From Amycolatopsis sp. DSM 110486 (GTDB taxonomy: Bacteria; Actinomycetota; Actinomycetes; Mycobacteriales; Pseudonocardiaceae): a stretch of DNA of 64,000 nt. Below are positions 1,170 to 61,793 of this stretch, in pieces (positions within the stretch are counted from its first letter, which is position 1; every line of letters begins with the position of its first letter). The notes beneath the pieces were generated by a model, which saw only the letters and a list, made by a program, of their open reading frames with translations, was not told the DNA's origin and ran no database searches. Where the stretch lies: NCBI RefSeq assembly GCF_019468465.1, contig NZ_CP080519.1, positions 1,813,001-1,877,000 on the forward strand, written 5' to 3'. The position numbers and the translations under genes are program-made.

Positions 1170-3221
1170 GTGCCCGCTCGAAGTGATTTCCCCGGCGTCC
1201 TCGAACTCCTCACCCATGCTGTGGAGTCCGTGGGCGGAGCCGAGCGGCCGGGCCAGGTGAAGATGGCCGACGCCGTCGGCCACGCCATCCGCACCGGTGA
1301 ACACCTCGCCGTGCAAGCGGGTACGGGAACCGGGAAGTCGCTGGCGTACCTGGTGCCCGCGATCCGCCACGCGGTGGAGAAGGAAGCCACCGTCGTGGTC
1401 TCCACGGCCACGATCGCGCTGCAGCGCCAGCTCGTGGACCGCGACCTGCCGCGCCTGGCGAAGGCGCTGAAGAAGCCGCTGGGCCGCGAACCGACCTTCG
1501 CGATCCTCAAGGGCCGCCGCAACTACCTGTGCCTGCACCGGCTCGACACGGGCGCGCCCGACGAGCCCGAAGACGCGCAGCTGTTCGACCCGTTCGCCGT
1601 TTCCCGGCTGGGCAAGGAGGTCACGCGGCTGCACGAGTGGTCTTCGGACACCGAGACCGGTGACCGCGACGAGCTCGTGCCGGGTGTCTCCGACCAGGCG
1701 TGGCGCCAGGTTTCCGTGACCGCCAGGGAATGTCTCGGCGCGGCACGCTGCCCGATCGGCACCGACTGCTTCGCCGAACGCGCGCGGGCCGAGGCCGGGC
1801 GCGCGGATGTGGTCGTGACCAACCACGCGCTGCTCGCCATCGACGCGTTGCAGGGCTACCAGGTGCTGCCCGACCACGACCTCGTGATCATCGACGAGGC
1901 CCACGACCTGGTCGACCGCGTCACGTCCGTCGCCACGGGCGAGCTGACCAGCGCCATGGTGTCCGCGGCCGCGCGCCGCTGCGGGCGGCTGATCGACGCC
2001 GACGTGGCCGACCGCCTGCTGGAAGCGAGCGACGGCCTCGCGCTGATCCTCGACGATCTCCCGGCCGGACGGCTGGATACGCTGCCGCAGGCGCTGAACG
2101 GCGCGATCCCCGCGGTGCGCGACGCGGCGAAGGCCTGCCTGACGGCGCTGGGTTCAGACCGCAAGGAAGACGTCGACGGGGCCACCGCGCGCAAGCTGGC
2201 GCGCTCGCTGCTCGAAGAGGTGCACGACACCGCGGCGCGCCTGCTCGACGCGTACGACGAGGATCTGGCGCACCAGCGTGACGTCGTGTGGCTCACGGGC
2301 GACCGCTACTCGGCGAACCCGAGGCCGCCGGCGTTGAAGGTGGCACCACTGGGCGTCGCGGGGCTGCTGCGCGAGCGCGTGTTCAACCTCAACACCACTG
2401 TGCTCACCTCGGCGACGCTGACCCTGGGCGGCGAGTTCGACACCATGGCGCGGCAGTGGGGCCTGCCGCCGGGCGGCGCGCGCGTCACGAAGGCGCCCGG
2501 TACGGCCACGGACAAGGAAGCGCCGGCCGACGAGGACAAGGGACCGAAGTGGACGGGCCTCGACGTCGGCTCGCCCTTCGACCACCGGCGCAACGGGATC
2601 CTCTACCTCGCCAAGCACCTGCCGCCGCCGGGCCGCGACGGGCTGGCGGAGTCCACAATGGACGAACTCGCCGGATTGGTCGAGGCCGCGGGCGGGCGCA
2701 CGCTGGGGTTGTTCTCCTCGATGCGCGCGGCCAAGCAGGCCGCCGAAGCGATGCGCGAGCGGCTCGACTACCCGATCCTGTGCCAGGGCGACGACTCGAT
2801 GCCCACGCTGGTGCGCCAGTTCACCGACGAGCCGCGTACGTGCTTGTTCGGCACGCTCACGCTGTGGCAGGGCGTCGACGTGCCGGGGCCGTCGCTGCAG
2901 CTCGTGGTGGTGGACCGGATCCCGTTCCCGCGCCCCGACGACCCGGTGCTGTCGGCACGCCAGCGAGCCGTGGAAGCTCGTGGTGGCAACGGGTTCCTCA
3001 CGGTCGCGGCCACGCACGCGGCGCTGCTGCTCGCGCAGGGCACGGGTCGGCTGCACCGCTCGATGACCGACCGCGGTGTGGTCGCGGTGCTGGACTCGCG
3101 CCTGGCAACCGCGCGGTACGGCGGTTTCGTGCGCGCGTCGCTGCCGCCCTTCTGGCCCACCACGGATCCCCAGGTCGCACGCGACGCGCTGAAGCGGCTC
3201 GACGCGGCGGCGCCCGCGTGA
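1170..3221 (+). CDS. DinG/XPD-like ATP-dependent DNA helicase
   Basis: 683-residue superfamily 2 helicase of the DinG/XPD iron-sulfur type. Walker A is AGTGTGKS (about residues 49-56). The DEAH box is VIIDEAHDLVDR. Between them are cysteines in NYLCLHRL, ARECLGAARCPIG and DCFAER that fit the 4Fe-4S cluster of this family. Late motifs include GTLTLWQGVDVPG and QGTGRLHRS (motif VI). Such enzymes unwind DNA 5'-3' and remove R-loops or other obstacles. The open frame extends to 936, but homology begins at the GTG at 1170, 8 bases after a TATCGT -10-like hexamer, which suggests a leaderless transcript. One GTCCAYWRTGGAC palindrome lies inside (2651-2663). Confidence 0.9.
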   Translation: MPARSDFPGVLELLTHAVESVGGAERPGQVKMADAVGHAIRTGEHLAVQAGTGTGKSLAYLVPAIRHAVEKEATVVVSTATIALQRQLVDRDLPRLAKALKKPLGREPTFAILKGRRNYLCLHRLDTGAPDEPEDAQLFDPFAVSRLGKEVTRLHEWSSDTETGDRDELVPGVSDQAWRQVSVTARECLGAARCPIGTDCFAERARAEAGRADVVVTNHALLAIDALQGYQVLPDHDLVIIDEAHDLVDRVTSVATGELTSAMVSAAARRCGRLIDADVADRLLEASDGLALILDDLPAGRLDTLPQALNGAIPAVRDAAKACLTALGSDRKEDVDGATARKLARSLLEEVHDTAARLLDAYDEDLAHQRDVVWLTGDRYSANPRPPALKVAPLGVAGLLRERVFNLNTTVLTSATLTLGGEFDTMARQWGLPPGGARVTKAPGTATDKEAPADEDKGPKWTGLDVGSPFDHRRNGILYLAKHLPPPGRDGLAESTMDELAGLVEAAGGRTLGLFSSMRAAKQAAEAMRERLDYPILCQGDDSMPTLVRQFTDEPRTCLFGTLTLWQGVDVPGPSLQLVVVDRIPFPRPDDPVLSARQRAVEARGGNGFLTVAATHAALLLAQGTGRLHRSMTDRGVVAVLDSRLATARYGGFVRASLPPFWPTTDPQVARDALKRLDAAAPA

Positions 3222-3279
3222 CGGCGCGCACAACCCGGGCGGGTACGGTGAAGAGAACGAACACGACAGGGAGCACCGG

Positions 3280-3612
3280 TTGACCCAGGATTCGTCCAGC
3301 GCACGATCCCGGACCGTCAGTGTCGACGACACCGGGGTGCGGCGCCGTCTCGCCGATGGCAGCGAAGAGGCCGTCCAGTGGGCGGAGCTCTCGTCCGTGA
3401 TGGTCAGAGTGATCCCGGACGGCCCGTGGAACGAGGACGTGTTCTTCATGCTCGTCGGCAACGACGGCAGGGGCACGGCCGTCCCCAGTGGAGACCCGGC
3501 GGCCGACGCCCTCATCGAGCGCCTCCAGTCGCTGCCCGGCTTCGACAACGAGAAGTTCATCGAGGCCATGACCACGGACGCCGACCAGGCGTACGTGGTC
3601 TGGCAGAGCTGA
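3280..3612 (+). CDS. Conserved hypothetical protein, 110 aa
   Basis: Small soluble acidic protein, no signal peptide and no membrane segment. It has alternating hydrophobic/charged stretches (TVSVDDTGVRRRLADGSEE, WAELSSVMVRVIPDGPW) that look like a beta-rich fold, and a Trp near the C-terminus. It starts at a TTG 5-6 bases after a GGGAG ribosome site, 58 bp downstream of the helicase gene and on the same strand, so the two may be co-transcribed. A perfect terminator hairpin follows 17 bp after the stop. I recognise no functional motif. Confidence 0.75.
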   Translation: MTQDSSSARSRTVSVDDTGVRRRLADGSEEAVQWAELSSVMVRVIPDGPWNEDVFFMLVGNDGRGTAVPSGDPAADALIERLQSLPGFDNEKFIEAMTTDADQAYVVWQS

Positions 3613-3629
3613 CTTTCCAGCACAGAGCA

Positions 3630-3660: not shown

Positions 3661-3668
3661 TTGCTGCG

Positions 3669-4073: not shown

Positions 4074-4151
4074 CGCCCGCTCCTCACGACGTCGTCTACT
4101 GATCAAAACCGCAAGCGGCACACCGGTGTTCCGCGTCGAGACGCACCGCAC

Positions 4152-6148
<1,997 letters not shown>

Positions 6149-11198: not shown

Positions 11199-12326
11199 TC
11201 AGCCCTGCGCGAGGGCCAGCGGCACCAGTTGCTCAGCCTCCGTCAGCGAGCCGTGCTGGCCGATCAGGGACGTCTCGACCGCTTCGGCCAGGCCGCGGAC
11301 CATGCCGAACGTGCCCTGGGCCGCGGCGACGACGTCGCCGATGCGGGGGCGCACGCGGTCGCTCACGGTGCCGAACCAGCCTTGCGCGATGGCCTCGTCG
11401 CGGGGCAGGACCCAGGCGGACGGGCCGAGGACGGACTGCCAGGCCGCCAGGACATCGGCGGCCGCGCCCGATTCGGTGTAGACGTGGCGGGCGCGGACCT
11501 CGCCGCCGAAGGCGCGGACGCCGTCCAGCAGCTCCGGGGTGTCCTCGAGGTCGAGTTTGTCGTCCACGGTCACCATGCCGTGGTCGGCGACGACGGCCAG
11601 CAGCGCGCCCGCGGGGAGGCCGTCCACAATGGACTCGACAAGGCGGTCGACGTGCCGAAGCTGCATACGCCAGGCGGTGGAGCCGGGGCCGTAGAGGTGG
11701 CCGAGCAGGTCGAGTTCGCTGTGGTAGGCGTAGCAGAACGACCGTGCCGCGAGCACCTCCAGCGTCCGCGCGGCGAGGTCGCCCAGGGCGTGGACGCCGG
11801 CGTAGCGGGCGCCGCTCTGGGTGGCGCGGGTCAGGGCCGTGTCGGAGAACTGGGCGGAGGACACGACGACGGCGTCGAGGCCCGCCGCGGCAGCGCGTTC
11901 GAAAGTCGTCGGAAGCGGCTGGACCGAGCGAGGCGGGAGGGCGCCGCGCAAGTCGCTGCCGTCTTCGTGGGAGCGCCAGCGCAAGGCGTTGAGCACGCCC
12001 GTGCCCGGCACCTCGAACGTGTACCCGACCATCCCGTGCTCCCCCGACGCCAGGCCGGTGCCGATCGCGGCGACGCCGGCCGCCGTCGTCGACGGGAAGC
12101 CGACGCGCAACGGGCTCTTCGCGAGCTCCGTGAGCACCGGCGCGTCGGCCGCGTGCTCGGCCAGGAGCTGCCAGCCGAGGCCGTCGATGAGCAGCACGCA
12201 CGCACTGCGCGCCTCCGGCAACGCCAGCGAACCCGCCTCGCCCGGCACGCCGAGCGCGCCCAGCACCGCGGGGACGACCTGGCCGAGGTGCGGGAGGTCG
12301 GTGATCTGGGGAACGTCCACGAACAC
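11199..12326 (-). CDS. Alkaline-phosphatase superfamily phosphodiesterase/nucleotide pyrophosphatase
   Basis: 375 residues of the type I phosphodiesterase/nucleotide pyrophosphatase family. The metal-binding start is ACVLLIDGLGWQLL, the catalytic-nucleophile region is GFPSTTAAGVAAIGTG, and later metal ligands are in AYHSELDLLGHLYGPGS and LAVVADHGMVTVD. The family hydrolyses phosphodiester or pyrophosphate bonds. No signal peptide, so probably cytoplasmic. A GTG start at 12326 is taken; the GTG at 12320 is equally possible. A GTCCAYWRTGGAC palindrome is inside the gene (11622-11634). Confidence 0.85.
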   Translation of the reverse strand: MFVDVPQITDLPHLGQVVPAVLGALGVPGEAGSLALPEARSACVLLIDGLGWQLLAEHAADAPVLTELAKSPLRVGFPSTTAAGVAAIGTGLASGEHGMVGYTFEVPGTGVLNALRWRSHEDGSDLRGALPPRSVQPLPTTFERAAAAGLDAVVVSSAQFSDTALTRATQSGARYAGVHALGDLAARTLEVLAARSFCYAYHSELDLLGHLYGPGSTAWRMQLRHVDRLVESIVDGLPAGALLAVVADHGMVTVDDKLDLEDTPELLDGVRAFGGEVRARHVYTESGAAADVLAAWQSVLGPSAWVLPRDEAIAQGWFGTVSDRVRPRIGDVVAAAQGTFGMVRGLAEAVETSLIGQHGSLTEAEQLVPLALAQG

Positions 12327-15585: not shown

Positions 15586-16260
15586 CTACTCCCCGAAGTT
15601 CGACTCCACCAGACCGGTCACCTTGGCGAGCGCGTCCGAAGCCTCGGGCCCCCGGGCGCGCACCACGATGTGGTCGCCCTGGCGGGCGCCGAGGGACATG
15701 AGGGCCAGGACGCTGTGGGCGTCGGCTTCCTGGTCGCCCAGGCGGATCGTCACCTCGGCTTCCAGGGAGGCCAGGCTGCGCACCAGGACGGCGGCGGGGC
15801 GGGCGTGGAGGCCGACCTCGTTCGTCAGCGTGAGTTCCTTCTCCTGGGCATCACCAGGAGAGTCCACTGCGGCGAGGTCTGGAGCCAGGCCGGCACCCGC
15901 AGCGGCAGAGGCCACCGCCTTGCGGTCCGCCCCACCCTGAGCAGCGACGGCGGCCGCGATGGCGCCCTCCACCAGTGGACCGTCGGCGACCACGGCGGCA
16001 AGGCCGCCGGAAAGCGACTCCACCGCGAGCTCCGCCGTCATCTGCGCGCTGCCCAGGTCGTAGAGCAGCACCACGCCGTCGCCGGAGTCGGCGCGTTGGG
16101 TGGCGGCCACGACTTCGTCGTAGTCGGTGCCGATGCCGCCGTCGTCAGGGAGGCCGCCGGCGGGGATGATGCGGACGTCGGGGGCCATTTGGGCGGCCAG
16201 GTCGGCCAGGCCTTCGGCCAGTTTGGCGCTGTGCGAGACGAGCACGATCCCCACGGTCAC
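15586..16260 (-). CDS. dhaM: DhaM: PTS-dependent dihydroxyacetone kinase phosphotransferase subunit with HPr domain
   Basis: 224 residues in two parts. Residues 1-130 are the EIIA-Man-like DhaM domain, with the phospho-accepting His in VGIVLVSHSAKLAEG and the GSAQMTAE segment. After an Ala-rich linker comes an HPr domain (about 140-224) with its active His in NEVGLHARPAAVLV. DhaM relays phosphate from the PTS to ADP bound on DhaL. E. coli DhaM has a further EI-like domain that is absent here, so this protein needs a separate Enzyme I. The GTG start at 16260 overlaps the dhaL stop as GTGA. Confidence 0.92.
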   Translation of the reverse strand: MTVGIVLVSHSAKLAEGLADLAAQMAPDVRIIPAGGLPDDGGIGTDYDEVVAATQRADSGDGVVLLYDLGSAQMTAELAVESLSGGLAAVVADGPLVEGAIAAAVAAQGGADRKAVASAAAGAGLAPDLAAVDSPGDAQEKELTLTNEVGLHARPAAVLVRSLASLEAEVTIRLGDQEADAHSVLALMSLGARQGDHIVVRARGPEASDALAKVTGLVESNFGE

Positions 16261-16883
16261 CGGGCGGCCTCCGCGAACGCGCGCAGCAGCAGCGCCGTGG
16301 AGCGGGCGCCGGGGTCCATGTGGCCGACGGCGCGTTCGCCCAGATACGAAGCCCGGCCCTTGCGAGGCACCAGGTCCACTGTGGACTCGGCGCCGCGGTC
16401 GGCCGCGTCGGCCGCCGCGGTCAGCACGTCCGCGATCGAAGCGTCCGCGGGGCAAGCGGCGGCCGCGGAGACGGCCGGGATGAGCGCGTCGACCATCGTC
16501 GCGTCACCGCCCACCGCTTTGCCGCGCGCCTGCACACCGTCCAAAGCGGCCTGCAGAGCGGCCACCAGCAGCGGCACGTCGATCGAAGCCGCGTCGCCCA
16601 GTTTCGTCGACGCGCGCAGGAAAGCCGTGCCGTACAACGGACCCGCCGCGCCGCCGACCTTCGAGATCAACGTGGTGGCCGCCAGTTTGGCGACGCCCGC
16701 CGGGGTGGCGGGCACCTCCGTCTCCAGGGCGGACACGATCGCGGTGAACCCGCGGCTCATGTTCTCGCCGTGGTCGCCGTCGCCGATGGCGCGGTCTAGC
16801 TCCACCAGTTCGGAGCGGTGCTCGGCCACGACTTCGGCCGCGGCTCGCAGCGCGGCCGCGACTCCTTCGGAAGAACAACCCAT
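16257..16883 (-). CDS. dhaL: DhaL: ADP-binding subunit of dihydroxyacetone kinase
   Basis: 208 residues. The Mg-ADP site motif is RAIGDGDHGENMSRGF (about residues 30-45), followed by SKVGGAAGPLYGTAFLRA and GDATMVDALIPA, all diagnostic of DhaL. ADP stays bound as a coenzyme that is rephosphorylated by DhaM and passes the phosphate to dihydroxyacetone on DhaK. The ATG at 16883 overlaps the dhaK stop (TGATG), so translation is coupled; the frame's longer start at 16928 lies inside dhaK. It contains one GTCCAYWRTGGAC palindrome (16374-16386). Confidence 0.94.
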   Translation of the reverse strand: MGCSSEGVAAALRAAAEVVAEHRSELVELDRAIGDGDHGENMSRGFTAIVSALETEVPATPAGVAKLAATTLISKVGGAAGPLYGTAFLRASTKLGDAASIDVPLLVAALQAALDGVQARGKAVGGDATMVDALIPAVSAAAACPADASIADVLTAAADAADRGAESTVDLVPRKGRASYLGERAVGHMDPGARSTALLLRAFAEAAR

Positions 16884-17884
16884 CAGATCCCCCACCGCAG
16901 CGCGGACGTCCACACGGGCGCGTCCCACAGCTCGGTCAGCTCGTCGTCCAGCTTCAGCAGCGTCAGGCTCATCCCCTGCATCTCGAGACTCGTGATGTAC
17001 GGGCCGACCAGCCTGCGCTCGACCACGATCCCACGCTCGGCCAGCAGCCGCTCGGCGATGCCGTGCGCGAGGTAGAGCTCCAGCAACGGCGTGGCACCCA
17101 TGGAGTTCGTGAACAGCAGCACCTTGTCGCCCGCCTCGTACGGCAGATCCGACGCCACGGCCTCGACCATCCGCGCCACCAGCGCGTCGGCGGGCTCGGC
17201 CGGGATGCGCTCGCGGCCCGGCTCGCCGTGGATGCCGATGCCGAACTCGATCTCGTCTGGTCCCAGGTCGAAGCTCGGCTCGCCGACGTGCGGCACGATC
17301 GGAGCGCTCAACGCCACCCCGATCGACCGCACCTGCCCGACGACCTTGCGCGCCAGCGCCTCCACGGCGTCGAGCGAGTCGCCCCGCTCCGCGGCGGCGC
17401 CCACGATCTTCTCCAGCAGCACGGTCCCGCCGACGCCACGGCGGCCGGCGGTGAACGTGGAGTCCTTCACCGCGACGTCGTCGTCGATCACGACGCTGCG
17501 CACGTCGAGGTCCTCAGCCGCGGCCAGCTCGGCGGCGGTCTCGAAGTTCAGCACGTCACCGGTGTAGTTCTTCACGATCAGCAACGCACCGGACGGCCCG
17601 GTCGTCGCGGCGACCGCGGCCTGCACCCCGTCCGGCGTCGGGGACGTGAACACCGCGCCGGGCACCGCCGCGTCGAGCATGCCCCGCCCGACGAACCCGC
17701 CGTGCAGCGGTTCGTGGCCGGAGCCGCCACCCGAGATGACGGCGACCTTGCTCGGCACCGGCGCGTCGGCCCGCACCACGACGGCCGGATCGTCCTGGAC
17801 ACGGAGGATGTCGGCGTGGGCCACGGCGAGGCCTCTCAAGGACTCCGCGACCACTGTCGCCGGATCGTTGATGATCTTCTTCAT
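16883..17884 (-). CDS. dhaK: DhaK: dihydroxyacetone-binding kinase subunit
   Basis: 333 residues. Binds dihydroxyacetone covalently through a histidine; the segment FGIGIHGEPGRERIP (about residue 218) holds it. VAVISGGGSGHEPLHGGFVG and LLIVKNYTGDVLNFE are family hallmarks. ATG at 17884 with GGAGGT 6-7 bases upstream. First gene of the operon dhaK-dhaL-dhaM, which feeds dihydroxyacetone into glycolysis as dihydroxyacetone phosphate using PTS phosphoenolpyruvate. No regulator gene (DhaR/DhaS) lies beside it. Confidence 0.95.
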   Translation of the reverse strand: MKKIINDPATVVAESLRGLAVAHADILRVQDDPAVVVRADAPVPSKVAVISGGGSGHEPLHGGFVGRGMLDAAVPGAVFTSPTPDGVQAAVAATTGPSGALLIVKNYTGDVLNFETAAELAAAEDLDVRSVVIDDDVAVKDSTFTAGRRGVGGTVLLEKIVGAAAERGDSLDAVEALARKVVGQVRSIGVALSAPIVPHVGEPSFDLGPDEIEFGIGIHGEPGRERIPAEPADALVARMVEAVASDLPYEAGDKVLLFTNSMGATPLLELYLAHGIAERLLAERGIVVERRLVGPYITSLEMQGMSLTLLKLDDELTELWDAPVWTSALRWGI

Positions 17885-17955: not shown

Positions 17956-18936
17956 TCAGGCCCGCGGCAGGTTCCCCGCGACGCTTTTCGCCAGCGTGGT
18001 CGCCGTCGCACACGGGTCGCCGGTACCCGGCTTGAGGTCGTAGTCGGTGAACCCCACCTGGACGACTTCCACGTGGTCGCCCTGCCACGCCCGGTGCTGC
18101 CACTCGACCTTGCAGTCCGTCCCCGCCGTGCCCTTTTTCGCGTACGCCTGGTTCGCGCCGCCGACGTCGGCCTTCAGCCAGCCGTCGCCCTCCAGCGGTG
18201 GGAGGGCCGGGAAGAACATCACCGTGACGTTCGGGCTGTCGCCCCATTGGCAGCTGTGGAGCCCGGTCGCCCCGCCCTTCGTGCCCTTCAGCACTGCGTC
18301 CACGGCGGACTGGTCGAGCACCGCGCACGCGTCGGCTGTGAGCACGGATCCCTTGACGTCCGGGTATTTCAGCGGGGAGTTGTGCACCTTGTCCACGGCG
18401 GGAGCGAGCAAGGTTCGTCCCGCACGACACGGATCGCCACCCGGGTAATCGATCTCGAACGCGATGCCGAGGCTCGGATCGCGCGAGGTGAGCGCACTGA
18501 CCTCACACGAACCGCCGGTGGTGTCGGGCACCTCGACCTGCGGCAGGCCGCCGACCTGGCCCGTGGTCTTGTCGGAGGCGAACAGCACGATCGCGCCGAG
18601 CTGCACGTCGACCGAGAGCTCCTTGCCACCGGCGTCGCGCACTTTGGCGCTGCACTCGTCGAACCGGACGCTCGACGCCGTGGGCTCGCCCTCGGGAGTG
18701 CCCAGCGCGGAGAGCGACGCCTTGTCGAGGAACTGGCACGGCAGCACCTGGCGCAGGGAACCCGCCGCGACCGCGGCATCGGTGATCGGCCCGCTGCCAC
18801 CGTCCCCGCTCGCGGCGGGGACGGTGGTCCGGGGGAAGTTCTCCTTGCCCAGCTGCGGACCGCCACAGGCAGTCAGGACGAGGACACCGGCCACCACCAG
18901 GGGAAACAGCCGGCCGAGTTTGAGATCGCGCGCCAC
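17956..18936 (-). CDS. DUF3558-like lipoprotein
   Basis: About 326 residues. Lipoprotein signal peptide: LFPLVVAGVLVLTACGG, with the lipobox LTAC at about residue 22. The mature protein has two similar halves: a first with PCQFLDKASLSALG and RFDECSA, and a second with ACAVLDQSAVDAVL and LHSCQWG. This is the tandem DUF3558-like pattern common in Pseudonocardiaceae. Function unknown; presumably surface-anchored. GTG at 18936 taken; the GTG at 18945 is also possible, and neither has a clear ribosome site. Confidence 0.78.
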   Translation of the reverse strand: MARDLKLGRLFPLVVAGVLVLTACGGPQLGKENFPRTTVPAASGDGGSGPITDAAVAAGSLRQVLPCQFLDKASLSALGTPEGEPTASSVRFDECSAKVRDAGGKELSVDVQLGAIVLFASDKTTGQVGGLPQVEVPDTTGGSCEVSALTSRDPSLGIAFEIDYPGGDPCRAGRTLLAPAVDKVHNSPLKYPDVKGSVLTADACAVLDQSAVDAVLKGTKGGATGLHSCQWGDSPNVTVMFFPALPPLEGDGWLKADVGGANQAYAKKGTAGTDCKVEWQHRAWQGDHVEVVQVGFTDYDLKPGTGDPCATATTLAKSVAGNLPRA

Positions 18937-20994: not shown

Positions 20995-21269
20995 GCGAGC
21001 CACCTCCGAATTCAACAATTTCCCACAGGAAACACCAGCGTCCTGTTAGATCCGGACAGTACTGCATGGATTCCGGAGCGGCACCCCGACACGGGCGATC
21101 TTGGAAAACGCCTTCTCGCCACGGCGATGAGCTGGGGAAACGCGGGCGTTCGCGGAGTGTGATCTTGACGGCTCGGGCACCGGTGACCGGAACCTCACGA
21201 ACGCGCAGATGCGCTCACAAGGCACCACATCGTCCACTCAGGACGGTCGTCGGGGGTTGCGCCGGCGGC

Positions 21270-23296: not shown

Positions 23297-24267
23297 ACCC
23301 CGACCGTAACGCCGCCGGGCGCGGAACGGAACGTGCGCCGGTACGAATCGGGCCCGACGCCGACCTCCGCGCGCAGCCGACGGCGCAGGTTCGCGGCCGT
23401 GCCCAGCCCCGACCGCTGTGCGACGCGCTCCACCGGCAGCTCGGTGGTCTCCAGCAGGCGTTGCGCCAGCCGCACCCGTTGCACGCGCAGCCACCGCCCC
23501 GGCGTGACGCCCGTGGCCGCGGCGAACTCGCGGTGGAACGTCCGCTCGCTCATCCCGGCCTGGCCGCACAGGTCCGCCACACCGATCTCCTCGGCCAGCC
23601 GCGCCAGCGCCCAGTCCATAGTGGACGACAGACCCGGCCGGGCAGGCGCCGCGGGCAACGGGTTTTCGACGTACTGGCGCTGGCCGCCCTCGCGCGCGGG
23701 CGGCATCACGAGGCGCCGCGCGAGTTTCGCCGCGACGTCCGCGCCGTGGTCGCGACGCACGAGGTGCAGGCAGAGGTCGAGACCGCCGACCACGCCCGCC
23801 GAGGTGAGCACGCCGTCGGACTCGGTGTAGAGGACGTCGCGCTGCGGTTCGGCCCGCGGCGCCGCGACGGCGAGTGCGTCGAGGTCCCACCAGTGCGTGG
23901 TCGCGGGGCGGCCGTCGAGCAGGCCCGCGGCCGCGAGGGTGAACGCGCCGGAGCACAGACCCGCCACGGTCGCGCCGGAACGGTGGGCCCGGCGCAACGC
24001 GGCCGACGCGGCGGGCGGCACCGGGGCGTGCGGATCGTCGCGGCCGGGCGCGAGGACGAGGTCGCAGCCGTCGAGTCCGGTCAATCCGTGCGTCGACGTG
24101 ACTTCTCCGAACGGGGACAACGGGGTGCGCCGCCGGCCCGCCCCGCACAGCCGCACCGTGAACGGGCCGATGCCGCTCTCGCTGCGGTCCTGTGCCCAGA
24201 CCTCGGCGATCACCCCGAGGTCGAACGCGCGCGTACCCGGCAGGAGCAGCACCCCGATCGTCCGCAT
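23269..24267 (-). CDS. GlxA-like AraC family transcriptional regulator with DJ-1/PfpI domain
   Basis: 332 residues: an N-terminal DJ-1/PfpI-like ligand domain (IGVLLLPGTRAFDLGVIAEV; GATVAGLCSGAFTLAAAGLL with the Cys at the nucleophile position) and a C-terminal AraC double helix-turn-helix (LCGQAGMSERTFHREFAAAT, VERVAQRSGLGTAANLRRRL). Regulators of this GlxA/CdhR type often control a neighbouring amidohydrolase. Here the divergent gene 72 bp away is an isochorismatase-type hydrolase, its likely target. ATG at 24267; TACTTT (complement of 24274-24279) 6 bases upstream. A GTCCAYWRTGGAC palindrome lies at 23614-23626. Confidence 0.88.
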   Translation of the reverse strand: MRTIGVLLLPGTRAFDLGVIAEVWAQDRSESGIGPFTVRLCGAGRRRTPLSPFGEVTSTHGLTGLDGCDLVLAPGRDDPHAPVPPAASAALRRAHRSGATVAGLCSGAFTLAAAGLLDGRPATTHWWDLDALAVAAPRAEPQRDVLYTESDGVLTSAGVVGGLDLCLHLVRRDHGADVAAKLARRLVMPPAREGGQRQYVENPLPAAPARPGLSSTMDWALARLAEEIGVADLCGQAGMSERTFHREFAAATGVTPGRWLRVQRVRLAQRLLETTELPVERVAQRSGLGTAANLRRRLRAEVGVGPDSYRRTFRSAPGGVTVGVWPSTSTSS

Positions 24268-25667: not shown

Positions 25668-26307
25668 GGCGTTCCAATCGTCGGGCCAGCAGTGACGAGG
25701 GCAGGCTCACCAGCAGGAACAGCACCCCGGCCAGGGTGTAGGGCTCGACGACGCGGAAGGTCTCCGCACCGACCTCCTTGGCGCGGTTGAGCACGTCCAG
25801 CACGCCGATCGCCAGCAGCAGCGGCGTTTCCTTGAACATCGAGATCGTGTAGTTGCCCAGCGCCGGCACCACCCGCGGGATCGCCTGGGGCAGCACGACC
25901 GCCGTCCACACCCGCTGCCGTGGCAGGTTCAGCGCCACCGCCGCCTCCCACTGTCCTTTCGGGACGGCTTCGATCCCGGCCCGGTAGACCTCGGCGGTGT
26001 AGGTCGCGTAGTGCACGCCGAGCGCCACGACGCCGGTGACGAACGCCGACATCGTGATCCCCGTCAACGGCGGAACGAGCCAATACAGTACGAAGACTTG
26101 GATCAGCAGCGGCGTGCTGCGAATGAACTCGATGAAGAACAACACCAAGCGCGAAAGCACCGGGATCCCGGCCCGGCGCAGCAAGGCCAGCACCAAGCCG
26201 AGCGCGTACGCGACGGCCGAACCGAGCAGCGTGAGCTCGACCGTGACCAGCAATCCCTTCAGCAGCAACGGGATCGCGTCGGCGGCGGCCTGCCAGTCCC
26301 AGTTCAT
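25651..26307 (-). CDS. ehuD: Ectoine/hydroxyectoine ABC transporter permease EhuD
   Basis: 218 residues, about five membrane helices, polar-amino-acid HisM type. The cytoplasmic EAA loop that docks on EhuA is visible as EAAVALNLPRQRVWTAVVLP. Starts MNWDWQAAADAIPLLLKGLL at the ATG at 26307, which overlaps the ehuC stop as ATGA and has GGAGGT upstream. It forms the membrane channel with EhuC. Confidence 0.9.
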   Translation of the reverse strand: MNWDWQAAADAIPLLLKGLLVTVELTLLGSAVAYALGLVLALLRRAGIPVLSRLVLFFIEFIRSTPLLIQVFVLYWLVPPLTGITMSAFVTGVVALGVHYATYTAEVYRAGIEAVPKGQWEAAVALNLPRQRVWTAVVLPQAIPRVVPALGNYTISMFKETPLLLAIGVLDVLNRAKEVGAETFRVVEPYTLAGVLFLLVSLPSSLLARRLERRAERA

Positions 26308-35189: not shown

Positions 35190-35624
35190 TCAGGACGCGT
35201 GCGGCAGCATTCGTCCCGGCGGAGCCGACTCCAGCCAGGACAGGAACCCGGTGAGCGCACCGGGCCCCATCGCGATCTCGATCGCTTCCTGCGTGGGCGA
35301 CTCACACCGCAGGACAGTGGAACCTTCAGGCACCGCGTACGCCTCTGTGCCGGACGGGTCCCGCCGGTCGGCGATCTGCATGCTCTCGCGCTGGAACACG
35401 CGGTCCGGGCCGGACCGGAGGCTCCAGACGCGATACCAGACGAACTCGTCGCCCTCGTAGCGCCCGAGACCGAGGTGCCAGCTGGCGCGCGGGTTGTCCG
35501 GACGCCACCGCAGCGCGACGCTCACGCCACCGCCGCGGCGCATCCGGATCCACCGCTGGCCGTACCAGGCCGCCAGCACGGCGAGCACGATCAGGAGCCC
35601 CAGCACCACGATGGCGATCTTCAC
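35190..35624 (-). CDS. DUF2550 membrane-anchored protein
   Basis: 144 residues. N-terminal helix (AIVVLGLLIVLAVLAAWYGQ), then a soluble beta-rich domain with VALRWRPDNPRASWHLGLGR, YEGDEFVWYRVWSLRSGPDR and LRCESPTQEAIEIAM. Matches DUF2550 proteins encoded just after atpC in mycobacteria (Rv1312) and other actinobacteria. Function unknown; the constant position suggests a link to the ATP synthase or envelope. ATG at 35624, 25 bp after atpC. Confidence 0.88.
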   Translation of the reverse strand: MKIAIVVLGLLIVLAVLAAWYGQRWIRMRRGGGVSVALRWRPDNPRASWHLGLGRYEGDEFVWYRVWSLRSGPDRVFQRESMQIADRRDPSGTEAYAVPEGSTVLRCESPTQEAIEIAMGPGALTGFLSWLESAPPGRMLPHAS

Positions 35625-36015: not shown

Positions 36016-36092
36016 GTAGCACTCCTTCGCTCGGGGTGTCACCACCGAGTGTAATAGGTCCGGCTTCGGTTACGAGAACGGCGGGGGCGGGT

Positions 36093-36105
36093 GTCCACAG
36101 TGGAC
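36093..36105. repeat. Intergenic copy of the palindrome GTCCAYWRTGGAC
   Basis: GTCCACAGTGGAC, a perfect palindrome around the central A, in the 114-bp gap between atpD and atpC. It is the only one of seven window copies that is not inside a gene. It is too short to act as a terminator alone. Confidence 0.7.
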
Positions 36106-36129
36106 CCAGCCCCCGCCGCGCTCAGAGAA

Positions 36130-38492
<2,363 letters not shown>

Positions 38493-42738: not shown

Positions 42739-43259
42739 TGCGCTCCTCCCGGTTCTCCCGGCCGGCGTTCACTCCGCCGGGGGAATCGTCACGATCTGGA
42801 CTTAACGTACCCGATACGCACGAGCACGCCGGAGGCGGCCAGCCCCACCGCGCAGTGAATGATTCTCATGCCCTGCACAGAGGTTGGCTCGCAAGAGCAC
42901 TGCCCTGCAATCCACTTCGGACCAGCGGCTGAGGGGCGGAACCATCGGGTCGCCACACTGCTGGTCGCGGTTCGTTTGAGGGAGTGCGCGGGCGAGGCCG
43001 CCACCCTTGAAGCGGACCCTACCAGCAGGTCAATCGGTGCCGTACACGCGTACTTCATACCAACCGATCAGCTCAGGACTTAGGTCCCGAGTCCATCCAG
43101 GACCCAAGTCCGGGACGCGCGCGACCGGTTTCGCAACACCACAGGTGAGCGCCTCGGCGAGGTGCGCCACCCACCCGAAAGTCGGCTGGTGTGTTTCAGG
43201 TCACACGCGGATGCCGCAGCGCGCTCTCACTGTTGGTAGCCGAGGGTGCCGGGTTCGCG
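42739..43259. other. 521-bp gap between atpI and atpB, no supported gene
   Basis: Two short opposed frames occur here (42859-43083 plus, 42789-43058 minus). Neither has homology I recognise, a ribosome site or a GC-third-position bias. The region is slightly less GC-rich than its neighbours and should hold a promoter for atpBEFHAGDC. TAGGGT on the minus strand (complement of 43016-43021) is a possible -10, but I cannot identify a convincing -35. Confidence 0.5.
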
Positions 43260-43993: not shown

Positions 43994-44290
43994 TCACGAT
44001 GCCGACCGAAACCGTCCGATGGGGACTGACGTGGCCGAACGCGTTGCGGGCTGGGAAAAGCGGACCGAGAACCCGCACCGAGCGGCCGTCGTTCGGGCCG
44101 TGCCGGCGGCACCGAGTCCGACCACTTCAGCGCGAGCGACTCGCGTGCCCGATCGAGGACGCCTGGTCCACAGCACCGTTTTTCGTGATTCGGCCGGACT
44201 CGCCCCCGTCGGCTCGGCAGCGACGCCAGCCCCGGGAAAGGTCGCCATCATCGAACCCGCAGCCGACAGGACCACCGCGATTTGGCGCAT
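43994..44290 (-). CDS. Possible small secreted protein, possibly frameshifted
   Basis: From the ATG at 44290, preceded by GAGGTG 5 bases upstream, the first 33 residues form a good Sec signal peptide (MRQIAVVLSAAGSMMATFPG then AGVAAEP). The remaining 65 residues are Arg/Thr-rich and their third-position GC is clearly lower than in neighbours. A different frame nearby (about 43910-44010) has high GC3 and reads TVSVGIVTATSLGGIALACT. So either this is a short true gene or a decayed/frameshifted one. The rest of the 666-bp gap (43710-44375) shows nothing else I can support. Confidence 0.4.
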   Translation of the reverse strand: MRQIAVVLSAAGSMMATFPGAGVAAEPTGASPAESRKTVLWTRRPRSGTRVARAEVVGLGAAGTARTTAARCGFSVRFSQPATRSATSVPIGRFRSAS

Positions 44291-45627: not shown

Positions 45628-46278
45628 TCAGGCGAGCGACTCGGCGGGCACGCCCATGACCTCGGCGATCGCCGCGCGCGTGACCGCGCCTTCGCGCAGC
45701 ACCACCGGATTCTCGCCCGTGAGGTCCACGATCGACGACGCCACGGCCTCGCCGCTCGAACCGCCGTCGAGGTACACCGACACCGAGTCGCCCAGCTGAT
45801 CCTGCGCCTCGGCCGCGGTGGACGCGGGCGGGCGGCCGGAGACGTTGGCGCTCGACACGGCCATCGGGCCGACGTCGCGCAGCAGCTCCAGCGCCACGGG
45901 GTGCAGCGGCATCCGCAGCATCACGGTGCCGCGCGACTGCCCGAGGTCCCACTGCAGGCTCGGCGCGTGCGGGAGCACGATCGACAGGTCGCCCGGCCAG
46001 AACGCCTCCACGAGCGCCCGCGCCTGCGGCGGCAGGCCGAGCACAAGACCGTCCACTGTGGACCACGAACCGACGAGCACACCCACGGGCATGTCCGGGC
46101 CGCGGTTCTTCGCGCGCAGCAACGCCTGCACGGCGCCCGCGTCGAAGGCGTCGGCACCGATGCCGTAGACGGTGTCGGTCGGCAGGACCACCAACCTGCT
46201 CGACCTCACCGCTGACGCCGCGGTGGCCAGCCCTTCGGCCCGGGACTCGCGCTTGCTGCAGTCGTACACCGCACTCAT
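45628..46278 (-). CDS. L-threonylcarbamoyladenylate synthase (Sua5/YrdC family)
   Basis: 216 residues. YrdC domain signs: VVLPTDTVYGIGADAFDAGA, LLRAKNRGPDMPVGVLVGSW, FWPGDLSIVLPHAP and GPMAVSSANVSGRPP. It makes threonylcarbamoyl-AMP for the t6A37 modification of ANN-decoding tRNAs. TAGGCT (complement of 46286-46291) ends 7 bases before the ATG: probable leaderless start. The gene sits in the conserved prmC-sua5-wecA order, but here it is separated from prmC by two inserted genes. A GTCCAYWRTGGAC palindrome lies at 46051-46063. Confidence 0.94.
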   Translation of the reverse strand: MSAVYDCSKRESRAEGLATAASAVRSSRLVVLPTDTVYGIGADAFDAGAVQALLRAKNRGPDMPVGVLVGSWSTVDGLVLGLPPQARALVEAFWPGDLSIVLPHAPSLQWDLGQSRGTVMLRMPLHPVALELLRDVGPMAVSSANVSGRPPASTAAEAQDQLGDSVSVYLDGGSSGEAVASSIVDLTGENPVVLREGAVTRAAIAEVMGVPAESLA

Positions 46279-46342
46279 GCCGCGAAGCCTAGCCCTCGTC
46301 CCCGGCACCTGAATGCGGTGGTCAGGTGCCGGGGACGCCGGG

Positions 46343-52920: not shown

Positions 52921-54363
52921 GTGCGAACCAAAGACCTCCGCTTCGGTCTCGCCATCTTCGGCGCTTCCCTCGCCCTGCTCCTGGTCCGCTTCCTCGTCCC
53001 CAGACCCATCGGCATGGCCGACAACGGCGACGGCTGGCGGCTGCTGTGCAAGCTCGGCGGCAAGCAGCTCGACCGCCCGGCGGAGGGCTTCGTCCGCTTC
53101 AACTACGGCGCCGGGGTCCCCTGCACGAGCGACTACGTCTCGAGCCAGAACTGGCTCGACTGGCTGGCGAGCAAAGCCGGCCACCTCTTCGGCTCGAACG
53201 CCATCCTGAACCTGATGGTCCTCGGCATCGGCACCTGCGTGCTCGTCGCGGTCGCCATCACCGCCGCCGTGGCCGGGCTCGACCTGAAGCGCCGCGGCCA
53301 GGTCATCGCGGCGGTCCTGCTGCTGCTCGTCATGGGCGACTCCGCGTTCTTCGGCTACTTCGCCTCCACGCTCAGCGAGGGCGCGGCCTTCCTCGGCATG
53401 CTGCTGATCTGCGGCGGCCTCCTGCTGATGCACCGCGACCGAGGCCGGCGTTACGCCGGCGCCGTCATCACCGTCCTCGGTGGACTGATCGGTATCAACG
53501 CGAAATCGCAGACCCTGTTGCTCATCCCCCTTTTCGTGCTCGCCGTTCTGCTGGTGAAACCCAACGGCGCGCACGGCAAGGCCCGCTGGTCGCTGCTGCT
53601 CGCGGTGCTCGTGTTCGTGGGCGCCGGGACGCTCGCGGTGCAGTCGCACGGCGACCCGGCCAACGCGGAGTACCGCGAGGCCAACGTGTACAACGCGATC
53701 TTCGACTCCATTGTGGACGGCAAGCACGACACGAACGCCGACCTGGCGGCACTCGGACTTCCACAATCGTTCGCGAAGTACGTCGGCACCGGCTGGTGGA
53801 CTCCGGGCGCGGCCAAGACCGACCCGCTCTACCCGCGGTACCGCGACAAGATCAGCCGCCGCAACGTGGTGCGGTACTACTCGACGCACCCCGAGCGCGT
53901 CGCGCAGATCCTGCAGCAGGGCGGCGTGAACACGCTCACCGCACGGCCGGACAACCTCGGCAGCTTCGGTGAACTCTCCGGCCAGCCGCGGCTGTCGAAG
54001 GAGTACCGCGTGCCGGTGTTCTCGGGACTCGCCACGCTGGCCGCGCCCGCGGGGCTGTTCGTGCTGGTTCCCCTGTGGCTGCTGATGATCTGGGCCGCCG
54101 CGCGCGCGTTCCGGAGGGGGCGGCGCGAGTACGGCCTCGTGGTGCTGATGCTGACGTTGTTCGCCGTCGGGCAGCTCGGGCTGTCCGCGCTGGGCGAAGG
54201 CGTGGAAGGCGTGAAGCACCAGCTGCTCACGTTGTTCCCGACCGTGCTGGCGCTCGCGTTCGCGATCCTCAGCCTGCTGCCGCGCGCCGAAGAGGCGCCG
54301 ACGCCGCAGGGGGAACGCGAGGACGACGAGCCGCTGACCGAGGAGATCGCGGCCGTCGTCTGA
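52921..54363 (+). CDS. WsfD-like membrane glycan hexosyltransferase
   Basis: 480 residues, about 9-10 helices. The first outer loop has GMADNGDGWRLLCKLGG, the DNGD motif of the WsfD-type glycan hexose transferase family, and later GFVRFNYGAGVPCTSDYVSS. The large outer loop contains NAEYREANVYNAIFDSIVDG and VRYYSTHPERVAQILQQGG. GTG start at 52921, 92 bp after the GT-C gene, so it may have its own promoter or be co-transcribed. Function by family resemblance only; it probably acts on the same glycan. Confidence 0.75.
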   Translation: MRTKDLRFGLAIFGASLALLLVRFLVPRPIGMADNGDGWRLLCKLGGKQLDRPAEGFVRFNYGAGVPCTSDYVSSQNWLDWLASKAGHLFGSNAILNLMVLGIGTCVLVAVAITAAVAGLDLKRRGQVIAAVLLLLVMGDSAFFGYFASTLSEGAAFLGMLLICGGLLLMHRDRGRRYAGAVITVLGGLIGINAKSQTLLLIPLFVLAVLLVKPNGAHGKARWSLLLAVLVFVGAGTLAVQSHGDPANAEYREANVYNAIFDSIVDGKHDTNADLAALGLPQSFAKYVGTGWWTPGAAKTDPLYPRYRDKISRRNVVRYYSTHPERVAQILQQGGVNTLTARPDNLGSFGELSGQPRLSKEYRVPVFSGLATLAAPAGLFVLVPLWLLMIWAAARAFRRGRREYGLVVLMLTLFAVGQLGLSALGEGVEGVKHQLLTLFPTVLALAFAILSLLPRAEEAPTPQGEREDDEPLTEEIAAVV

Positions 54364-58501: not shown

Positions 58502-59410
58502 TTACTGAGCCGCAACCTGAACACCCGTCAGGTCCACGCCCAGCTCGGCGACGTCGAACCCTTCAACGTCGCATTCCGGCGGCAATATTCCCGTCGTGGT
58601 GAGGGCGAGCACAGTGGGACCGGCGCCGGAGATCGTCGCCGCCACGCCGTGAGCACGGAGTGTGCGTACCAATTCGGAGCTCGCGGGGTACGCGCTGGCC
58701 CGGTACTCCTGGTGCAGCCGGTCTTCCGTGGCCGCCAGCAGCAGCTCGGGTCTGGTCGTCATGGCGAGCACCGAAAGCGCTGTGCGGCCCGCGCTGTGCG
58801 CCGCGTCGGCGTGCGGAACGTGCTGCGGCAGCAGGCCGCGCGTGGCGTCCGTGGACGACTTCAGCGCCGGGATCGCCACCACAGGACGGATCTTGGTGCT
58901 GGGCTCCACTCGTTCGGCGTGGAAGCGCCCGTTGTCGCACCACGCCACCACGAGCCCGCCGAGCAGGCTGGCGGCCGCGTTGTCCGCGTGGCCCTCGAAC
59001 TCGGCCGCGAGCTGCAAAGCCTCGTCGTCGAGCGCGACGCCCGCCAGCGCGTAACCCAGCGCCACGCCGGACACCACGGCGGCGGCCGAGGAACCGAGCC
59101 CGCGTGCGTGCGGGATCTTGTTGAAGCAGCGCAGGTGCAGGCCCGGCGGGCGCACGTCGAAGTGCGCGCACGCGCGGCGGATCGCCCGCACCACGAGGTG
59201 CGTCTCGTCGGTGGGGACGTCGGCGACCCCGCCTGCGCCGGCGTCGACCACCTCGACCTTGAGGCCGTCTTCGATCACCTGCAGCTCGACGACATCGCGG
59301 CGCGCCAGGGCCAGGCCCAGCGCGTCGAACCCCGGGCCGAGGTTGGCCGTCGAACCCGGCACCACGGCCCGGAACGACGCGCCCGCCGACCGGCCCGAGG
59401 AGCTCGTCAC
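58502..59410 (-). CDS. thrB: Homoserine kinase
   Basis: 302 residues, GHMP kinase. [20 protein letters not shown] is the N-terminal signature, and [20 protein letters not shown] is the ATP-binding glycine/serine loop (about 95-114). [18 protein letters not shown] is the C-terminal motif. It phosphorylates homoserine for threonine synthesis. The GTG at 59410 overlaps the thrC stop as GTGA. Last gene of the amino-acid block; the rho promoter follows. Confidence 0.96.
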
Positions 59411-60477
59411 CGCAGGTCCAGGGCCGCTGCGACCGCCGTGGGATCGACGGCGAGGGGCTCGACCTCGACGTTGCCCTCGAGCGCGGTCGCGGGGTCCTTG
59501 AGGCCGTGGCCGGTGACCGTGCACACGACCGTGCTGCCCTTCGGCAGCCGGCCGTCCGCGGCGGTGGCGAGCAGGCCGGCGACGCTGGTGGCCGACGCGG
59601 GCTCCACGAACACGCCCTCGCGTCCGGCCAGCAGGCGGTAGGCCTCGAGGATCTTCGCGTCGGTGATCGCCTCGAACAGGCCGTCGGACTCTTCCTTCGC
59701 CTTCACCGCGCTCGTCCACGAAGCCGGGCTGCCGATGCGGATCGCCGTCGCGATGGTGTCGGGGTCCGCGACCGGTTCACCCAGCACGAGCGGCGCGGCG
59801 CCGGCCGCCTGGAAGCCGAACATCCGCGGGGTGTTCTTCACCACACCGTCTTCGGCGTACTCCGAATACCCGGCCCAGTAGGCGGTGATGTTGCCCGCGT
59901 TGCCCACCGGCAGGCAGTGGATGTCGGGCGCCTGGCCGAGCGCGTCACAGACCTCGAACGCCGCGGTCTTCTGGCCCGCGATGCGCACCGGGTTCACGGA
60001 GTTCACCAGCGTCACGGGGTAGTCGGCCGAGGTCTTGCGCGCGAGCTCGAGGCAGTCGTCGAAGTTGCCGTCGACCTGCAGGATGCGCGCGCCGTGCAGC
60101 ACGGCCTGGGCGAGCTTGCCCATCGCGATCTTGCCCTGCGGCACGAGCACCGCGCAGGTGAGCCCGGCGCGCGCCGCGTAGGCGGCCGCCGAGGCCGACG
60201 TGTTGCCCGTCGACGCGCAGATCACGGCCTTGAGCCCGCTCGCCAGCGCGTGGGTGATGGCCACGGTCATGCCGCGGTCCTTGAACGAGCCGGTGGGGTT
60301 CGCGCCCTCCACCTTGAGGTACACCGTGCAGCCCGTGAGCTCCGACAGGTGCGCGGCGGGCAGCAGCGGGGTGTTGCCCTCGCCGAGCGTCACCACCTGC
60401 GCGCCGTCCGGCACGGGGACGCGATCGCGGTACGCCTCGATGATTCCCGGCCAGGCAGTCAATCCGGCTGCATTCAC
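59407..60477 (-). CDS. thrC: Threonine synthase
   Basis: 356 residues. PLP lysine in [19 protein letters not shown] (about residue 61), phosphate loop [18 protein letters not shown]. It converts O-phosphohomoserine to threonine. It has the short, class-specific form seen in actinobacteria. The GTG start at 60477 overlaps the hom stop as GTGA, so hom, thrC and thrB are translationally coupled. Confidence 0.96.
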
Positions 60478-61793
60478 TGGTCTTCACCCTCCACCCGCAT
60501 CACGCTGACGACTTGGTGCACCACATCGAGTTTCGCGATCTCGTCCACAGTGGACTGCAGCGCCGCGTCGGGCGCCAGGTGGGTGACCACCACGAGGCTC
60601 GCCGTGTCGTTGGCGTCGCGCTGGCGCACGGCCGCGATGCTCACGCCGTGGCCCGCGAACGCCTGCGCCACCTGCGCGAGCACGCCCGCGCGGTCGGCGA
60701 CGTCGAGGCTCACGTGGTAGCGCGTGGGCGTCTGGCCCATCGGCCGCATGGGCAGGGCGGCGTGCGCCGACTCGCGCGGGCCGCGGCCGCCGATCACGCG
60801 GTTGCGGGCCACGGCGACGAGGTCGCCCAGCACCGCGCTCGCCGTGGGGGCCCCGCCGGCGCCCTGGCCGTAGAACATCAGCTCGCCCGCCGCGTCGGCT
60901 TCCACGTAGACGGCGTTGAACGCGCCGCTGACCCCCGCGAGCTGGTGGCTGCGCGGGATCATCACCGGGTGCACGCGCGCCGACACGGACTCGGCGCCGT
61001 CGTCGGCCGTCACGCGCTCGCAGATCGCCAGCAGCTTCACCGTGCGGCCCAGCACGCGCGCGGCGACCAGGTCGGCCGCGGTGACGTCGGCGATGCCCTC
61101 GCGGTGCACGTCCTTCGCCGTCACGCGCGTGTGGAACGCGAGCGAGGCGAGGATCGCGGCCTTGGACGCGGCGTCGTAACCGTCGACGTCGGCCGTCGGG
61201 TCGGCCTCGGCGTACCCGAGGCGGCCGGCCTCGTCGAGGGTCTCGGCGTAGCCCGCGCCCGTGGTGTCCATGGCGGAGAGGATGTAGTTGGTGGTGCCGT
61301 TGACGATGCCCATCACGCGCGTGATGCGGTCGCCGGCCAGCGATTCGCGCAGCGGGCGCAGCAGCGGGATGGCGCCGGCCACGGCGGCCTCGAAGTACAG
61401 ATCGACACCCGCGGCGTCGGAGGCCTCGAACAGGTCCGCCGAGTGCTCGGCGAGCAGCGCCTTGTTGGCCGTGACCACGGCCTTGCCGGCGCCCAGCGCC
61501 GCGAGCAGCCAGCCGCGGACCGGCTCGATGCCGCCGACCAGCTCCACGACCACGTCGACGTCTTCGCGGACGACGAGCGCGGCCGCGTCGTCGGTCACCA
61601 GCTCCTGCGGCAGCTCGGGGTGCTTGTCGGGGCGGCGCACGGCGATACCCGCCAGCTCCACCGCGGCCCCGGCGCGCGCCGCCAGTTCGTCCGCCTGCTC
61701 GGTGAGCAGCCGGACGACCTCGCTGCCGACGGTGCCGCAGCCGAGGAGGGCGACCCTGATCGCTCGTCCGTCCGATGGAGACACTGTGGACAC
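60474..61793 (-). CDS. hom: Homoserine dehydrogenase
   Basis: 439 residues. N-terminal NAD(P)-binding [18 protein letters not shown], then catalytic domain signature [20 protein letters not shown] and the lysine region [20 protein letters not shown]. The C-terminal 75 residues are an ACT domain ([20 protein letters not shown]), the site of threonine feedback inhibition. GTG at 61793, 3 bp after lysA. Contains a GTCCAYWRTGGAC palindrome near its 3' end (60543-60555). Confidence 0.96.

Follow-up and report, generated by a model that had tools for sequence, protein, structure and literature searches.

A 13-bp palindrome iterated through an Amycolatopsis chromosome is a predicted binding site of a PadR-family protein

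Why does one 13-bp palindrome recur in unrelated genes of an Amycolatopsis chromosome? We analyzed a window of 64,000 nucleotides from Amycolatopsis sp. DSM 110486, in which an earlier note had described seven perfect copies of GTCCANNNTGGAC, six of them in genes and one intergenic. To our knowledge, there is little explanation so far for the role of palindromes that are highly iterated in genomes.

All seven copies are present, and Pfam matches confirmed five of the genes that hold them. GTCCACAATGGAC is in a helicase gene (site 2651..2663; gene 936-3221, plus strand) and in a type I phosphodiesterase gene (11622..11634; 11199-12326, minus strand), GTCCACTGTGGAC is in a DAK2-domain gene (16374..16386; 16257-16928, minus strand) and in sua5 (46051..46063; 45628-46308, minus strand), where it encodes Ser-Thr-Val-Asp, and GTCCACAGTGGAC is in a homoserine dehydrogenase gene (60543..60555; 60474-61793, minus strand). 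These five are in codon phase 2. The gene around the sixth copy, GTCCATAGTGGAC at 23614..23626, is uncertain. The intergenic copy, also GTCCACAGTGGAC (36093..36105), is just downstream of an ATP synthase alpha/beta gene (36130-37560, minus strand) and forms the tip of a larger hairpin. In the relative G009, the copies at 2651, 11622, 16374 and 23614 are identical, the intergenic copy has a changed centre between intact arms, and the copy at 60543 differs at one arm base.

The palindrome is strongly enriched in the window and in the whole chromosome. A third-order Markov model predicts 0.075 perfect copies in the window, and 15 places match the pattern with at most one mismatch, compared to 2.24 expected from dinucleotide shuffles. 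The 11-Mb host chromosome has 343 copies of GTCCANNNTGGAC and two of a reversed control pattern. Comparison with a third-order Markov model, set beforehand as the check that could refute the observation, gave 36 copies versus 1.05 expected in 864 kb.

The motif is looser than first described, and its conserved part is GTCC-N5-GGAC with an A/T centre. This form was found 190 times in the 864 kb (25.8 expected under the Markov model) and 2,223 times in the whole chromosome, from which we estimate approximately 1,900 excess sites by combining the sampled enrichment with the genome-wide count. The excess was at spacer 5 only; the same half-sites at other spacers were near expectation. A/T is preferred at the centre, which is nonetheless degenerate, and the fifth base is graded (A, then G, then T). 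A Y-W-R centre, as proposed earlier, fits the seven window copies and fails in general, as the 36 perfect sites have 19 different centres. The window contains 15 GTCC-N5-GGAC sites. Two of the four one-mismatch relatives previously picked out by eye are among them with both arms intact, GTCCACGGCGGAC at 18298..18310 and GTCCACTCAGGAC at 21232..21244; the arms of the other two (53706 and 63663) are not intact.

The sites are distributed across the sampled parts of the chromosome and are mostly in genes. Regular spacing, one of the checks named in the earlier note, was not found: the variation in gaps matched random placement in our sequence and in G009, and tended to clustering in G067. No regional exclusion was obvious in 20 spread 20-kb samples, which cover part of the chromosome. 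Called genes hold 122 of the 190 sites, and we reject a purely intergenic regulatory role on that count. Because the GC-based gene caller reaches only 73% of the sequence, intergenic sites are overcounted. GTCCAC resembles the actinobacterial DnaA box; we rejected a DnaA-box reading because the flanks of the 36 perfect sites are not conserved beyond the 13 bp. An RNA hairpin is disfavoured because coding-strand centres are A about as often as T (39/41 in our sequence, 19/21 in G009 and 31/39 in G067), with the exception of the perfect subset in G067 (10 A versus 21 T).

The sites are selected as DNA, also inside genes. The arms were intact in G009 at 36 of 67 sites, compared to 27 of 147 shifted-spacer or reversed controls (p=3e-7) and 34,728 of 111,502 random positions (31%; p=2e-4). 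Third-codon positions within sites were identical in 127 of 139 cases, in contrast to 47,390 of 62,106 for G/C third positions, and A/T centres remained A/T in 17 of 20 cases (2,251 of 5,418 for comparison). In sua5, both arms were intact in 23 of 25 aligned loci from the genus, and the remaining two differed at the first base only. Where sites are in phase 2, the centre falls on a third-codon position and was A/T in 55 of 90 cases, compared to 9% in called genes. Coding need does not explain the copies, as the earlier note had argued, given the spacer specificity, the A/T-rich third-position centres and the conserved wobble bases. Against this, of the eight looser window sites only one of the five that aligned in G009 was kept: GTCCTCGGTGGAC (53473..53485) is identical there, GTCCACGGCGGAC, GTCCATCCAGGAC (43091..43103), GTCCTTTTCGGAC (63537..63549) and GTCCGGGCCGGAC (35403..35415; a G/C centre, perhaps there by chance) are not kept, and GTCCACTCAGGAC, GTCCTTTCGGGAC (25953..25965) and GTCCGATGGGGAC (44014..44026) were unaligned.

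The likely binder of the palindrome is a PadR-family protein, PadR-B. The gene is outside the window (G000:C1:5,078,647-5,079,183), upstream of prfB, ftsE, ftsX and smpB. The protein matches PF03551 with 34.8 bits, above the curated cut-off of 27 (L124 and L137 score 42.2 and 37.1 bits), and, unlike the two type A proteins, has no match to Vir_act_alpha_C. A shared segment is TRSQ(V/I)YREL. The PadR-B promoter carries the motif, and the core is present with no more than one mismatch in 10 of 16 usable PadR-B promoters, five of these from the same genus; the best match in the other six has two to three. An equally good match occurred in 2-4.5% of random windows from the same loci (G000, G009, G067 and G030). 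Elsewhere, there were 18 perfect cores in 13 other genomes. Five of these, in four genomes (G575, G533, G426 and G487), precede a subfamily PadR gene, or its aligned start, by no more than approximately 80 bp, and the same four genomes provided the only PadR matches among 16 stretches around core sites.

The predicted structure of a PadR-B homologue resembles those of PadR proteins. The AlphaFold model of P0004, a PadR-B homologue with 92% identity (mean pLDDT 75, pTM 0.62), matches PadR structures, with the best E-value for Bacillus subtilis PadR (5x11), which was solved with operator DNA. The TM score to 5x11 is only approximately 0.41 because of a different domain arrangement in the model. 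Bacillus subtilis PadR differs in being a local regulator that responds to phenolic acids. The model also fits the crystal structure 8jxk of NapM (Rv0047c) over most of its length (TM 0.56-0.71), with 20-22% identity in the structural alignment and weak profile matches (30.1 and 22 bits). NapM is a PadR-family nucleoid-associated protein of Mycobacterium that bridges DNA in vitro and has broad effects on the transcriptome, and the available excerpts of PMC13340245 name no motif for it, in contrast to the motif defined here. Gbn (SCO1839) of Streptomyces, a GATC-binding nucleoid protein with more than 2,800 regions (GATCWT; PMC9239103, in excerpt), is similar in its sequence specificity and thousands of sites, which here are predicted ones. 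It differs in belonging to a new small-protein family and in its unrelated short motif; GTCC-N5-GGAC is strongly enriched here. Among the titles and abstract openings of the open-access PMC matches listed, we recognised none that describes such a motif or a PadR gene next to prfB; those listed with the letters of the motif concern, by title, animals, plants, parasites, viruses and human disease.

Motif abundance and PadR-B are co-distributed; the presence of PadR-B does not guarantee expansion of the motif. In a survey of 200 genomes of the order, 130 lacked PadR-B and had 0-21 copies; 70 had the gene and 4-605 copies. None of the 15 genomes of genus g64 had PadR-B, and each had 1-11 copies, no excess; the single g64 genome that we read has prfB-ftsE-ftsX-smpB without PadR-B. 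That g64 lacks both the gene and the motif excess may reflect one event. PadR-B was also absent from family f8, presumably Mycobacteriaceae, with at most 15 copies. In the survey, all genomes of f15 (28/28) and f13 (5/5) had PadR-B with only 8-51 copies, and copies were also few in G058 (4) and in G160, G177 and G286 (4-9), all with the gene. The spacer-5 excess was not clear in G047 (11 versus 7.0) and was weak in G049 (16 versus 7.8). A switched site, TTCCANNNTGGAA, suggested for f13 by the G047 promoter, was unsupported (0 copies in 200 kb). By density of the loose pattern, f12 (63-64 per Mb) falls within the range of genomes that lack PadR-B (22-82 per Mb). PadR-B was not found in G192, G242 and G279, which have 12-38 copies and whose assemblies are 87-90% complete.

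We consider it probable that the palindrome is a binding site of PadR-B and that PadR-B is a chromosome-wide protein of nucleoid type. Support comes from the enrichment, the spacer specificity, the selection on DNA, the core in front of subfamily PadR genes and the joint absence in g64; that PadR-B would be a sequence-specific nucleoid-type protein is suggested by its approximately two thousand selected, mostly genic sites. In the mechanism that we infer, PadR-B is a winged-helix protein, probably dimeric on DNA, each subunit of which would recognise one half-site (GTCC/GGAC), with a flexible A/T-rich centre between the two. PadR-B would control its own promoter, probably its ancestral role; its site would have spread in the family to approximately two thousand places, mostly genic, with purifying selection retaining the intragenic ones. 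More tentatively, and with somewhat less than even confidence, we propose that a local PadR autoregulator became a chromosome organiser in Pseudonocardiaceae and three more families of the order, its operator multiplied to approximately two thousand intracodon sites, and that the unit is missing from one genus. The earlier suggestion of an iterated palindrome that acts as a binding site is supported by strong enrichment, selection within codons and a co-distributed DNA-binding protein, without kinship to HIP1 or regular order.

If this is correct, PadR proteins are not confined to local regulation and can also bind a defined motif chromosome-wide, and a nucleoid system has been written into a genome by selection. 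The iterated palindrome is paired here with a specific candidate protein and a natural absence (g64), and there are relatives with the same core only at the PadR promoter. This makes the function and spread of such motifs accessible to direct tests in Amycolatopsis, an antibiotic-producing genus that can be cultured.

The alternative with the most weight, which we nevertheless regard as less likely, is that PadR-B binds and most intragenic sites are a huge regulatory or decoy set with no chromosomal role. NapM is scarce and was argued by its authors to be a regulator and not a structural protein (PMC13340245, in excerpt); the measurable selection on intragenic sites and an excess larger than an ordinary regulon argue against this for PadR-B. 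It is improbable that another protein, a nucleoid-occlusion factor or terminus organiser of the Noc, SlmA or MatP type, binds the palindrome and PadR-B is merely its regulatory target. Co-distribution alone is compatible with a third partner, and matS is likewise a 13-bp palindrome, but the rare core adjoins PadR genes in four genomes otherwise nearly devoid of it, and the samples from part of the chromosome gave no obvious regional exclusion.

We give still less weight to a methylation or restriction-modification site whose frequency is upheld by a methyltransferase or repair bias, a kind of explanation that has been discussed for the HIPs of cyanobacteria. HIP1, which is tied to orphan methyltransferases (PMC4390886, in excerpt), is also palindromic, intragenic and highly iterated through a genome; however, HIP1 is GCGATCGC, which excludes the proposed kinship with GTCC-N5-GGAC, and the associated gene here encodes a PadR protein. 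The degenerate A/T centre, the graded fifth base, the sites upstream of PadR genes and the joint absence with PadR-B better fit a binding protein. An artefact of composition or codon usage, for which the favoured codon phase (90 of 122 sites in phase 2) might speak, has practically no chance of being correct, as identical half-sites at other spacers are near expectation, third-codon positions and A/T centres are conserved, and centres on third-codon positions have A/T at six times the usual frequency.

The palindrome was strongly over-represented in the host genome. All seven perfect copies of the 13-bp palindrome GTCCANNNTGGAC that the earlier note had placed in the window were confirmed at their positions. 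The genome (11 Mb in two contigs), whose closest named relatives among those found belong to Amycolatopsis, contains 343 copies, and only two of the pattern read backwards. We sampled 864 kb of it (the window, 400 kb around the window, and 400 kb in 20 spread stretches) and found 36 copies versus 1.05 under a third-order Markov model, the background against which the note had proposed to judge its claim. The enrichment stood, but the palindrome as noted was too narrow: allowing all centres gives the looser motif GTCC-N5-GGAC, found 190 times with 25.8 expected, and the same half-sites at spacers 0-4 and 6-11 occurred 10-32 times. Two relatives behaved similarly, with 143 copies versus 16.8 expected in G067, the most copy-rich genome of our family survey, and 95 versus 15.9 in G009. 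The centre base was A or T in 137 of the 190 sites (expectation about a fifth), and there was no visible conservation of the flanks beyond the 13 bp among sites of the host genome. Genome-wide, the loose motif occurs 2,223 times and its reversed pattern 107 times. Because the reversed pattern understates the background, we scaled up the Markov value instead, and estimate an excess of roughly 1,900 sites. Regular spacing, which the note had counted as support for a role, was not found in this genome, where the mean interval is 4-5 kb.

Judged from sequence comparison, the sites are selected at the DNA level. We aligned 257 kb of the host genome with G009 (84.5% identity). All eight arm bases were kept in G009 at 36 of 67 sites. 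Among controls with the half-sites at other spacers or in reverse order, 27 of 147 kept them, and random 13-mers were unchanged at these positions in 34,728 of 111,502 cases (31%); sites were picked for matching in the host genome, a bias common to the spacer controls and absent from the random positions. For the window, the arms were kept in six of the seven perfect sites and in one of the five aligned among its eight looser sites. Most in-gene sites of the host genome (90/122, phase 2) read xxG TCC NNN NNG GAC, which puts the centre at the third position of a codon. This centre was A or T in 55/90 phase-2 sites of the host genome, 56/97 in G067 and 34/53 in G009; the A/T share of third positions in called genes is 8-10%. 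Across 35 aligned phase-2 sites, arm third positions were identical in 127 of 139 cases, the overall figure for G/C third positions being 47,390 of 62,106. An A/T centre remained A/T in 17 of 20, versus 2,251 of 5,418. The first quarter of called genes was poorer in sites in the host genome (17/122) and G009 (5/64; chi-square over quarters, p~0.016 each), not in G067, all counts resting on crudely called start codons.

The site in sua5, within the window, was aligned in 25 of the 29 genus loci fetched from a search of 40 genomes. Its arms were intact in 23, the other two deviating at the first base only. Identity at its four arm wobble positions was 92-100%, other third positions averaging 70%; in all 25 loci the centre was A or T. 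The intergenic site forms the tip of a strong hairpin (36060-36135, minus strand; -44.1 kcal/mol, z -4.8 versus shuffles) just past the 3' end of an ATP synthase alpha/beta gene; the hairpin could serve as a terminator or as a processing element, with the motif inside it.

Copy numbers varied widely within the host's family, Pseudonocardiaceae, and beyond it. In a phylum-wide draw, the perfect core GTCCACWGTGGAC was present in 14 of 296 genomes, with 138 copies in the host genome and at most two in each of the others. All 249 family genomes contained GTCCANNNTGGAC, from 1-11 copies in each of the 15 genomes of genus g64, through tens in several other genera, to 1,018 in the richest. Outside the family, GTCCANNNTGGAC was raised in families f5 (103-529), f9 (30 and 205) and f12 (67 and 100). 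The loose pattern reached 128 per Mb or more in f1 examples outside g64 and genus g27, and 37-58 per Mb in g64; f12, at 63-64 per Mb, was inseparable from genomes without PadR-B, the candidate binder described below (22-82 per Mb).

Some of the rare core sites adjoin PadR-family genes. We fetched 16 stretches holding all 18 GTCCACWGTGGAC sites of the 13 other genomes. Five sites, in four genomes, lie directly upstream of one PadR subfamily, and 13 lie elsewhere. G575 has two sites 33 bp apart, both upstream of the PadR gene. In G533 and G426 a subfamily member is preceded, at a distance of 70-77 bp, by one perfect site; tblastn over all 16 stretches added a fourth case, G487, and gave no PadR hit in the remaining 12. 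These PadR genes, which we call type A, have paired sites in three promoters (L124, L137, L130): both perfect in G575, perfect plus partial about 34 bp apart in G533, and perfect plus one-mismatch 41 bp apart in G426. This arrangement suggests binding by two dimers. The lone G526 site, with no PadR gene near it by tblastn of the stretch, forms the centre of an inverted repeat whose perfect arms measure at least 16 bp (L139:10021-10053). The two sites of G521 (L125:8815 and L125:11157), 2.3 kb apart, are probably one repeated segment because their 10-bp flanks are identical.

A related gene, PadR-B, lies outside the window in the host genome, followed by prfB, an ABC ATPase gene (taken as ftsE), ftsX and smpB. 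The order, read by eye, is the same in G067 and G142, and PadR-B adjoins prfB in G047, G049, G160 and G286. Among 16 usable upstream regions (G058, incomplete, was left out), the best match to GTCCACWGTGGAC had at most one mismatch in ten, five of them from the host's genus. Eight of the 16 regions, representing several families, had their best match 124-128 bp ahead of a conserved TGG codon; the G047 match is decayed, yet at that position. Inside the gene, GTCCGTTCTGGAC occurs at nucleotide 43 after the MTGG codon, identically in three families (L188, L195 and L194, from G047, G054 and G058), and G039 (L187) has GTCCATTCTGGAC at apparently the same place; this could possibly be a second operator. 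The segment TRSQ(V/I)YREL, kept in 12 aligned PadR-B proteins and shared by type A with R or Q at the second place, lies at the beginning of the third helix in a predicted model. The model, of a 92% identical homologue (P0004; mean pLDDT 75), had its best E-value with B. subtilis PadR bound to operator DNA (TM about 0.41) and gave fuller matches to Rv0047c and Rv1176c of M. tuberculosis (TM 0.56-0.71).

PadR-B and the motif excess were absent together in g64. With the G575 protein as query, 233 of 249 family genomes matched at 1e-15; the 16 unmatched were 13 of the 15 g64 genomes and the drafts G192, G242 and G279. The prfB-linked form, searched by profile (alignment A1), was missing from all 15 g64 genomes, among them the two with weak G575 matches (best 55 bits versus at least 187 in 12 carriers of the same search). 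The g64 genome G100 retains prfB, ftsE, ftsX and smpB, with DUF3500 and ABM genes in front. This joint absence may be a single evolutionary event. In a survey of 200 genomes from the host's taxonomic order (threshold 180 bits or more), the 130 without PadR-B had 0-21 copies of GTCCANNNTGGAC and the 70 carriers 4-605. Presence of the gene is not sufficient for the motif: all 28 f15 and all five f13 genomes are carriers and have 8-51 copies, and G058, another carrier, has four. Three g27 carriers (G160, G177, G286) had 4-9 copies; over 200 kb, the spacer-5 excess was weak in G049 (16 versus 7.8) and not clear in G047.

We favour a model in which PadR-B would originally have regulated its own gene and acted locally, as type A appears still to do, and would have turned into a chromosome-wide binder in some lineages, its sites in and between genes being upheld by selection. 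By analogy, such a system resembles a sequence-specific nucleoid protein, like Gbn in number of sites and NapM in protein family.

A 253-kb stretch of the host genome (G000:C1:55,550-308,937) is free of GTCCANNNTGGAC, with about eight copies expected at the genome mean. Other spacer-5 words were also over-represented: TCGA-N5-TCGA and GATC-N5-GATC in the samples of the host genome, G009 and G067, AGCT-N5-AGCT in the first two, and GTTG-N5-CAAC in G067, perhaps an effect of three-codon periodicity.
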